Shown: in pieces, positions 12,699 to 18,432 of the stretch
Position numbering within the stretch: position 1 is the first letter of the stretch
Layout: the number at the start of each line of letters is the position of its first letter
DNA from: Candidatus Poribacteria bacterium
GTDB taxonomy: Bacteria; Poribacteria; WGA-4E; WGA-3G
Direction of reading: 5' to 3'
Assembly: GCA_958295945.1 (NCBI GenBank)
Contig: OY282386.1
Coordinates: forward strand, 434,001 to 498,000
Length of the DNA stretch: 64,000 bases
The notes under the pieces: generated by a model
What the model saw: only the letters and a program-made list of their open reading frames with translations
What the model was told of the DNA's origin: nothing
The model's database searches: none
Translations under genes and position numbers: made by a program

Positions 12699-14261
12699 CT
12701 ATTGTATACGGAAGGAAAATAGTCGCGTATGATGTAAATTAAAACGGAATCGTAATGGTTGTATCGCATTTACCAACTGAGCCGATTTCCATTTTACGCG
12801 ATGGTGTATACAATCTTCTGTCAAAGGAATACAATCATCAAGTGAAAAGCCTGGTTGAACTTGTCCATCAGCTGTCAACACCTCAACTCTCATCTGACCA
12901 TCGCTTGCGTCAGCATTGATTTCAAGTGTGCCGTTGGGCATTTGTAAGGGAACAGTTTCAACAATACCTTCCACCGCATCAAGAGAAACGAACCCATCTA
13001 ATCTCCATTTAGCAAGACCAATTACTTTATGTCTATCATTCATTGCAGCACCATGTGTATGCTCTGTGCCAGTATAATACCAATGGATTTCATCATCTTT
13101 GATGATGGGTTGTGTTGCTGTTCCCATAATCATACCGGTGTCATAAGTGCCAGTTTCTCCGCGCGGGATAATAGGTGTCCGATCAGAATCTATGTAATCC
13201 CAGTTGAATCCATCAATACTACATACAAGCTGCGCATCAATCGGTCCATCAACAGGAATCTCATGCTCTGCGGCACCCGGTCCTGTTACATACAACACAC
13301 CAGCAATTCCTATGTATATATTATGATAAAGGAAGCCAGACATATTGTGTATTTCAGCGCGATCTGCACCGTATCTTTCTATTCCAACTTCATCATCCTG
13401 TTCCGTGGCTCTAAACATCGGTTCAAGTGGTTTCCAAGGTCCTTCTAACGTAGGACTTTCTGTGTATTCAATCATGCGGCGTGCATCTTTATCCTTATCA
13501 CGTGTAAGCGCATAGGCGCGAAACAGAGATGTCTTATTATCATAGATTACATTGAAACATCCTTCGTTATTTCGCTGTGCAACGGGTTCAAGATAGTCAG
13601 AGTCATGCCATCGTATTCCATCAGGAGATGTGAGAAAGAACACATTACGGTAACGTCTACAAAACCCTATTATTTTATACCGTTTCTGTGAATCTAATTC
13701 GTCGTCATCACGAAAGACACTTGCCCCGTGGAGATCCCATACGATGTTATTATTTGGATTTCCATTAAATTCAAAGATACCCAGATTCGGTTTTGTCCAT
13801 GTTAGTCCATCATGACTTTCTGCATAGCATGTGAGGTCTCCACGATCATTCTCAACAAACTTGCGTCCATATTTATCTTGTGTTTTTCCTCTATATGTTG
13901 ATGGATTTCTATCAGGACGTGGAACATAGAGTCCAGGAATCTCGTTTGCTTTGAATCGCCAATGGGGACCCATACGACACATATACCACATACGGTATTT
14001 ACCATACGCAGCATCATACATCGTGGTTCCATAAAGATGCACACGTCTGGATTGATCTGGACCACCGTGTTCCCAAGGATTGTTGGGGTCAGGTTCAAGC
14101 ACCGGAGCTTCATGCTTCACACATGGATGAAGAACTCGTTTCACGCCTTGTTTAGAAGCGATTAGTGCATCATCTATAAAAAGGTGTGTTCCAGAATTCA
14201 GTGTCTGTAAGTTGTTCAAATTATGTATAACCACAAATATATTATGCGCGTATAAGAACAC
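12699..14261 (-). CDS. Glycosyl-hydrolase-like five-bladed propeller protein
   Basis: A 520-residue protein resembling the GH32/GH43-like beta-propeller proteins common in planctomycetes and poribacteria. These often start with an LFIDDALIA segment and a basic HP.VKHE.PVLEPD.PWE stretch; both are visible here near the N-terminus. Repeated aromatic/acidic motifs follow (YDAAYGKYRMWYMCR, LTCYAESHDGLTWTKP, WHDSDYLEP). I did not identify catalytic acids with certainty, so activity on a glycan is an inference from family resemblance. The start is uncertain: GTG at 14261 gives a hydrophobic beginning (FLYAHNIFVV), but a later start before the conserved FIDD is possible. It lies 19 bases downstream of the LamG gene and is probably co-transcribed. 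Confidence 0.7.
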   Translation of the reverse strand: MFLYAHNIFVVIHNLNNLQTLNSGTHLFIDDALIASKQGVKRVLHPCVKHEAPVLEPDPNNPWEHGGPDQSRRVHLYGTTMYDAAYGKYRMWYMCRMGPHWRFKANEIPGLYVPRPDRNPSTYRGKTQDKYGRKFVENDRGDLTCYAESHDGLTWTKPNLGIFEFNGNPNNNIVWDLHGASVFRDDDELDSQKRYKIIGFCRRYRNVFFLTSPDGIRWHDSDYLEPVAQRNNEGCFNVIYDNKTSLFRAYALTRDKDKDARRMIEYTESPTLEGPWKPLEPMFRATEQDDEVGIERYGADRAEIHNMSGFLYHNIYIGIAGVLYVTGPGAAEHEIPVDGPIDAQLVCSIDGFNWDYIDSDRTPIIPRGETGTYDTGMIMGTATQPIIKDDEIHWYYTGTEHTHGAAMNDRHKVIGLAKWRLDGFVSLDAVEGIVETVPLQMPNGTLEINADASDGQMRVEVLTADGQVQPGFSLDDCIPLTEDCIHHRVKWKSAQLVNAIQPLRFRFNLHHTRLFSFRIQ

Positions 14262-16611: not shown

Positions 16612-17003
16612 AGTCCTGCTCCTTAAAAAGAGTGGCAGGGGAACGTGATCGAATCCCCCTATGAAATTGCATACTTTCACTTATTGGACATTATACCGAT
16701 TCAATTGTCCTATTAGGCATTATCCAAATGCCCCCACAATCATAAGGACAACACCATATACATGATACTCGATGTTACCAATCATGCCAAAATGATAATC
16801 ACTTTTCAACAAAATCAGTGAGTCTTGATTTTGTAAATTATTTTTTCATAACCTCGTCTAAACGCAGTACCCGTTTATTCTTGTGCATACAGTAGTTCGT
16901 TACTCTATCATTCCGTTATATATATCGTAATGAATAAAAAAGTGGGAGCGGTATTGAATGCGAAACTAAATAAACATGTTACAAGCTAACAAGCTTAAAA
17001 GAC
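16612..17003. other. Intergenic region between divergent genes
   Basis: Apart from the promoter and leader of the selW-like gene (from 17004) and the ribosome site of the TolB-like gene at its left edge, I see no gene, tRNA or repeat of the dispersed families here. Confidence 0.6.
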
Positions 17004-17032
17004 TTGAAAATTTCAATTAAATCTGGTACAAT
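17004..17032 (+). promoter_or_regulatory. Sigma70-type promoter of the selW-like gene
   Basis: TTGAAA (17004-17009) and TACAAT (17027-17032) are separated by exactly 17 bases. The ribosome site AAGGAGGA at 17055-17062 lies nine bases before the ATG at 17072, so a short leader of about 30 bases is expected. Confidence 0.8.
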
Positions 17033-17071
17033 TATGATGTATTCTCAGCACATTAAGGAGGAAAGGACTAA

Positions 17072-17302
17072 ATGGACATTAGAATAGAGTATTGCACTTC
17101 CTGAAACTATCAACCACGGGCAGCCAGTTTGGCAGAAGCCTTAGAAAAGAAATATAGTGGTCAGGTGAAGAAAGTGAAACTTGTGGAAAGTAGTGGTGGT
17201 GCTTTTGAAGTATATGTAAATGAAGAATTGCTTTTCTCCAAACTTGAGCAACGCAAATTCCCATCCGAAGACCAAATCACCACTTCAATCGACAAGTTAT
17301 AA
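17072..17302 (+). CDS. selW: SelW-like selenoprotein (Rdx family) with in-frame TGA
   Basis: A 76-residue thioredoxin-fold redox protein of the SelW/SelT/Rdx family, which carries a CxxU or CxxC motif in a short loop after the first strand. Translation from ATG 17072 gives MDIRIEYCTS, then TGA (17102-17104), then NYQPRAASLAEALEKKY. The TGA therefore falls exactly on the second redox position (C-T-S-U). The rest matches the family: a valine/lysine-rich second strand, GGAFEVYVNEELLFSK, and the KFPSEDQI helix start near the end. The frame stays open to TAA 17300-17302. Expression signals are excellent: a promoter at 17004, AAGGAGGA nine bases upstream, and a terminator after the stop. A stem-loop with a GUU loop begins 23 bases after the TGA. 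Ordinary gene finders would miss this gene, because TGA stops the frame at codon 11. The partner in the cell is unknown. Confidence 0.93.
17118..17141 (+). promoter_or_regulatory. Bacterial SECIS stem-loop in the selW-like gene
   Basis: GCCA (17123-17126) pairs with TGGC (17130-17133) around a GTT loop; below an internal loop, GGGC (17118-17121) pairs with GCCT (17138-17141) with one G-U pair. The loop begins 23 nt after the TGA and its first base is G, as in the bacterial SECIS model. The upper stem is short, so pairing strength is modest. Confidence 0.6.
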
Positions 17303-17309
17303 GTTTATG

Positions 17310-17346
17310 AAATGGGTATGATATTGAAAGTCATACCCATTTTTCT
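17310..17346 (+). terminator. Intrinsic terminator after the selW-like gene
   Basis: AAATGGGTATGA (17310-17321) pairs perfectly with TCATACCCATTT (17331-17342) over a 9-base loop and runs into TTTTTCTT. It sits 8 bases after the stop codon and may also serve the convergent lactonase gene. Confidence 0.9.
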
Positions 17347-17370
17347 TGTATATTATGTAGTCAGTTTTAC

Positions 17371-18432
17371 CTACAGAAATAGCACCCACATTGGATTTTT
17401 GCCTACCTCAATTATATCGATTTCAGATAGAATTCCCGTATCCCGATTGATCCGGTAAGTTGCCAATTTACCAGAACCTTGTCCACCAGCAAATAGAAAG
17501 TTACCTGTTTCATCAATGTTGAATACACGCGGCGTAGGTTCGGTAGGTTGATGTCCTTCTGAGGTCAATTCTCCATTCTCCTCATTGATAGAGAAAATCG
17601 CAATACTGTCATGCCCTCGATTTGAGACATAAAGGAACTTTGCATGTGGATCAATATGGATTTGAGCACAAGTATTGTTTTCAGTAAAATCGTCAGGAAG
17701 TGTGGAGAGTGTTTGAAATTCCCAGAGCAAGCCGGGGGCATCATGGACTGTATAATCAGGTGTTCCAGATTTTGGAATAGTGACATCTGGGTCACCTCTC
17801 TGAAGGTTGTAGGCAGATACACTTGATCCATTTTCATTTGAGAAGTAAAAGATCGGTTTGTTAGGATGTTCGCAGTAGTGGCGTGGACCTTCAGGATCAT
17901 CAGGATTAAAATTCCCAAAGAAATTTTGTGTTAGCATGCCGTTAGTTTCGTCAAAATGAAACTGATAGATTGCATTCCGTGGCACGGTGTGTGGCACAAA
18001 GGCAAATCTATTTGATACATCTGTTTCAATATAGTGTGCATGGGGAGCAGTTTCAATAGTTTGGATCGCTCCTTCTTGCACGGTTTTATCTTCACCAATT
18101 GCATGAACGGTAACTTTTCCTGCACCATAGTATGCAGAGAGTAGATATTTTCCCGTGTTGTCGGTCGCTATGTAGCATGTATCAGCATCAAGTTTGATAG
18201 TCCGTAATAGCGTCAGTTGTTTCGTTTCATCATCAATTTTGAAAGTTGCGATTTCTTGACTGGAACGGAGACCAGCGTACAGATAGTTTCCACATGGTGA
18301 ACGTGTCAATGGTCCAGGTGACCCGCTAACTTCAACATTCTCTTGTAATGCTATTGCCCCATTGTTGACATCAAAAGTATAAATTGCGATTCTGTTTTCT
18401 CCTGCAATAGAGAGATAAAGGTGTGTTTGCAT
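17371..18432 (-). CDS. Lactonase-family beta-propeller (6-phosphogluconolactonase-like)
   Basis: A 353-residue seven-bladed propeller of the YbhE/lactonase family, whose characterised members hydrolyse 6-phosphogluconolactone. Typical blocks are LYLSIAGENRIAIYTFD at the start, SPCGNYLYAG, TGKYLLSAYYGAGKVTVH, APHAHYIETDVSNRFAFVPH, IHIDPHAKFLYVSNRGHDSIAIF and RVFNIDETGNFLFAGGQGSGKLATYRI near the end; this last block is the usual conserved C-terminal strand pair. There is no signal peptide, so the protein is cytoplasmic. No other pentose phosphate gene lies nearby, so the exact lactone is unknown. It is transcribed towards the selW-like gene; the hairpin at 17310-17342 lies just past its end. 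Confidence 0.85.
   Translation of the reverse strand: MQTHLYLSIAGENRIAIYTFDVNNGAIALQENVEVSGSPGPLTRSPCGNYLYAGLRSSQEIATFKIDDETKQLTLLRTIKLDADTCYIATDNTGKYLLSAYYGAGKVTVHAIGEDKTVQEGAIQTIETAPHAHYIETDVSNRFAFVPHTVPRNAIYQFHFDETNGMLTQNFFGNFNPDDPEGPRHYCEHPNKPIFYFSNENGSSVSAYNLQRGDPDVTIPKSGTPDYTVHDAPGLLWEFQTLSTLPDDFTENNTCAQIHIDPHAKFLYVSNRGHDSIAIFSINEENGELTSEGHQPTEPTPRVFNIDETGNFLFAGGQGSGKLATYRINRDTGILSEIDIIEVGKNPMWVLFL

Follow-up and report, generated by a model that had tools for sequence, protein, structure and literature searches.

The window, that is the whole stretch of 64,000 nucleotides analyzed here, corresponds to bases 434001–498000 of a single-contig 5.34-Mb genome of a Candidatus Poribacteria bacterium. 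One short plus-strand gene in it, together with its surrounding signals, is described by the following features (window positions):

17004–17032, plus strand: putative sigma-70-like promoter, TTGAAA-17-TACAAT (10/12 consensus positions, TG before the -10 box)
17055–17062, plus strand: ribosome-binding site AAGGAGGA, read directly, 9 nt 5′ of the ATG
17072–17302, plus strand: SelW-like (Rdx) selenoprotein gene, 76 codons, predicted Sec as codon 11, stop TAA
17102–17104, plus strand: in-frame TGA, predicted Sec codon (C8-x-x-U11)
17118–17141, plus strand: bacterial SECIS hairpin, core stem 17122–17126 with 17130–17134, loop GUU at 17127–17129
17309–17343, plus strand: intrinsic terminator, a hairpin with a 14-pair stem, followed by a T run (T-rich tail)

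The original prediction expected standard annotation to miss the gene altogether; plain gene callers would stop this frame after 10 codons, although NCBIfam models for such proteins exist (below). With TGA translated as U, positions 17072–17302 encode MDIRIEYCTSUNYQPRAASLAEALEKKYSGQVKKVKLVESSGGAFEVYVNEELLFSKLEQRKFPSEDQITTSIDKL, carrying a CxxU redox motif (C8-T-S-U11) at the N-terminal end of an Rdx domain. The Pfam Rdx profile (PF10262) matches residues 3–74 over profile positions 2–73/74 with an E-value of 1.2e-24, so that the SelW/Rdx core expected under the Sec reading in the original prediction is recovered far beyond chance. NCBIfam already holds models for this type of (seleno)protein, and the product passes two curated cut-offs over its whole length: TIGR02174 comfortably (80 bits, cut-off 34.2) and NF041051 (SelT/SelW/SelH family (seleno)protein), whose label refers to Campylobacter-type members, only narrowly (89.5 bits, cut-off 88). 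Rdx sequence relatives of solved structure, C17orf37 (2ljk) and the bacterial 3dex, 2fa8 and 2p0g, align over nearly the whole length with the CxxC/CxxU motif at the same position; the solved Rdx structures shown in the alignments carry Cys at the position of the predicted Sec. Membership in the Rdx/SelW family is thus confirmed by Pfam, NCBIfam and structural relatives alike. Among 30 aligned SelW genes of the same GTDB family, C and U are invariant, and position 10 is either S or A.

In 30/30 aligned relatives of the gene, a site of the GGAGG type occupies roughly the same position, showing that the ribosome-binding site is real; the terminator hairpin with its T tail is present as well. The predicted promoter is present as described, but the match by itself is not above chance, the number of promoter-like matches in this stretch hardly departing from random expectation (6 versus 3.9 ± 2.1). 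The minus-strand gene at 17371–18432, convergent with the SelW gene, encodes a seven-bladed beta-propeller lactonase-type protein (PF10282, 9.6e-68) and is conserved beside SelW within the genus. Also on the minus strand, at 12699–14261, lies a 520-aa ORF with 82–86% identity across the genus and no Pfam match at 0.001. Neighbor genes of SelW are kept within the genus and, at the threshold used, were not found beside SelW in the loci of other genera; since, in addition, the downstream neighbor is convergent, the SelW gene is probably expressed alone. This arrangement bears on an alternative that accepts Sec at the UGA but assigns it a mainly regulatory, selenium-responsive role, the 10-residue peptide being the low-selenium product of early termination. 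Bacterial Sec codons do compete with termination, which lends that reading some plausibility. Yet a terminator of its own closes the gene, the downstream neighbor is convergent, there is no sign of a regulatory partner, and the main explanation would not be replaced even so; we consider a chiefly regulatory role very improbable.

The TGA codon is strikingly constant. The SelW gene is found in 57/59 genomes of its GTDB family, and every copy contains a single in-frame TGA. Among named genomes, a scan turned up 75 SelW loci, 38 from Poribacteria and 37 from about ten other lineages, including Bacillaceae (cultured members among them), Binatia, Gemmatimonadetes, Acidobacteria and Planctomycetes, and all 75 have TGA at codon 11; the two sets partly overlap, as several of the named Poribacteria contigs come from assemblies that are also counted among the family genomes. 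By protein identity, the named relatives closest to this gene are Candidatus Poribacteria, at 96% for the nearest. In codons 25–74, which lie outside the hairpin, mean pN is 0.15 against a pS of 0.63 (beyond the TGA, dN is far lower than dS), indicating that the part downstream of the TGA is under protein-level purifying selection. TGA is one base away from either Cys codon, and Cys forms of the SelW family exist (Table in PMC2398784), so one may ask whether the triplet simply stands for TGT or TGC through a sequencing error, or whether the gene is dead. An invariant TGA at the equivalent codon in 57/57 family genomes with the gene and 75/75 named loci, drawn from many assemblies and phyla, and strong selection on the downstream codons leave this a negligible probability, and we reject it. 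The sequencing error named as a refutation in the original prediction is excluded by the same counts.

The hairpin downstream of the TGA folds at -8.0 kcal/mol, and its stability alone does not exceed that of shuffled sequence (z = -0.23). Comparative data, however, show that it is real, so that the hairpin claimed at this place stands although its thermodynamics are unremarkable. Synonymous variation collapses over codons 12–24 (pS 0.17 versus 0.63 in codons 25–74), and codon diversity at conserved residues falls to 0.12 in these hairpin codons from 0.41 elsewhere (P = 0.0002). In an ungapped alignment of 53 SelW loci, from which the covariation counts were taken, stem columns 19–25 paired with 29–35 contain 31 cells changed on both sides, compared with 7.5 ± 2.3 in shuffles, and the stem covariation score is 0.307 versus 0.04–0.08 for slid versions. 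Four stem pairs show compensatory change, some of the changes being purely synonymous third-position pairs (e.g., GCC-AGT-TTG versus GCG-AGT-CTC); RNAalifold recovers the 5-pair core unaided, and compensatory changes maintain this small hairpin, with its G-U loop, across phyla. As a point on the other side, most Poribacteria have an A-A mismatch in the stem beneath a 4-pair upper stem. The published bSECIS model describes a loop of 3–9 nt with G in its first two positions, an upper stem of 4–16 bp, a distance of 16–37 nt from the UGA and an MFE of -7.5 or lower (PMC13188914). Applied by hand, it accommodates the SelW hairpin throughout: a GUU loop separated from the UGA by 22 nt, a GCCA/UGGC upper stem and -8.0 kcal/mol. 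Scanned against Rfam, neither the window nor 17000–17350 matched a SECIS or any other RNA family of relevance.

The original prediction supposed that the organism makes selenocysteine, and the same genome indeed carries selA, selB, selD and a tRNA-Sec with anticodon UCA (genome coordinates):

513641–514999: selA, 612 bits, about 15.6 kb past the window end
1975016–1975942, plus strand: selD, 361 bits, carrying an in-frame TGA of its own
2627765–2627854: tRNA-Sec, 78.1 bits (over the cut-off), anticodon UCA
2627907–2629802: selB, 362 bits, about 50 bases from tRNA-Sec

A selB match over the cut-off is present in 54/59 genomes of the GTDB family. The gene selD is itself a selenoprotein gene, its in-frame TGA giving KCAGUA, with a family check in support. 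A genome-wide reassignment of TGA to Trp, Gly or Cys, making it an ordinary sense codon here, would likewise place TGA inside a conserved frame. Such a reassignment is contradicted by the complete Sec pathway and by the in-frame TGAs examined, which occupy catalytic Cys sites in redox proteins and in SelD. Moreover, TGA terminates 11 of the window's 59 main ORFs (10 of them have another stop within the next 17 codons), from which we conclude that the code is not reassigned; with TGA in use as a terminator, we dismiss this reading as having next to no chance of being correct. The intergenic space of the window was also scanned for further TGA-containing frames and, judged by eye, contained no second convincing selenoprotein.

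We therefore regard 17072–17302 as almost certainly a stand-alone SelW-like selenoprotein gene, in which UGA codon 11 would be decoded as Sec under SECIS direction by the organism's own SelA, SelB, SelD and tRNA-Sec. The gene itself, the conservation of its codon and hairpin, and the pathway are established by sequence analysis; actual Sec insertion is predicted from the family and the pathway. SelB with Sec-tRNA-Sec would bind the hairpin, whose loop starts 22 nt past the UGA, and would deliver Sec at that codon. Judged from family and pathway, the product is most likely a small thiol/selenol oxidoreductase of the thioredoxin fold; when it reacts with its redox partners, C8 and U11 would form a selenenylsulphide.

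Bacterial SelW-like proteins are well-known selenoproteins, as the original prediction stated, and are plentiful in the sea. Members with a CxxU motif were described from Sargasso Sea bacteria (PMC1088965), the family outnumbered all others in the GOS set, where it had 427 Sec and 56 Cys forms (PMC2398784), and a 2026 review lists SelW-like selenoproteins as predicted with high confidence (PMC13188914). The gene described here shares with them the PF10262 domain, CxxU, a single Sec, a SECIS right after the UGA and a marine source, and nothing essential differs from the published accounts (PMC1088965, PMC2398784, PMC13188914) except for the host phylum, Poribacteria, which is unreported in the literature searched. 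It is thus an established bacterial selenoprotein type newly placed in Poribacteria. SelA and SelB have been found enriched in sponge symbionts (PMC5649159); the literature searched contained no paper with both Poribacteria and selenoprotein.

Further candidate selenoproteins occur elsewhere in the genome. In-frame TGA is present in 8 of 22 AhpC-TSA matches (7 genes), which points to a selenoprotein-rich genome. On reading, these codons fall on or close to the catalytic position, most of them within motifs of the TxxU or UxxC type. Several of these TGAs precede a 7-pair hairpin, GCAACTC-G[GT]T-GAGTTGC, with the same G-[GU]-U loop type as in SelW. One of the genes has an unusual architecture:

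4143279–4144286, minus strand (genome coordinates): tandem two-domain peroxiredoxin (AhpC-TSA-type), with a TGA at the catalytic position in each domain (FTGGU ... GRGU)

It has an apparent N-terminal signal segment. Among 58 family genomes sampled, 51 have a match, 49 of them with two TGAs; the remaining two are partial matches with one TGA. The TGA positions were verified in seven loci. A review table credits Prx of the TxxU type with one Sec and Prx-like proteins with as many as two (UxxU) (PMC13188914), so that the tandem double-Sec peroxiredoxin may be unreported, as far as the literature searched extends. A thioredoxin-like frame at 3990245–3990583 on the minus strand of the same genome contains a TGA within WUACRG, a motif whose active-site residues are unusually spaced.

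We propose that SelW is very probably one piece of an unreported, family-wide thiol-oxidoreductase selenoproteome of Poribacteria, comprising in this genome SelW, SelD and at least seven peroxiredoxin or Prx-like genes, one of them the tandem double-Sec protein kept in 49/58 sampled genomes of the family. The genomes of these uncultured sponge symbionts thus encode a complete Sec system and several predicted selenoproteins that plain gene calling shortens or misses, and the redox and peroxide defence of Poribacteria is consequently under-described.
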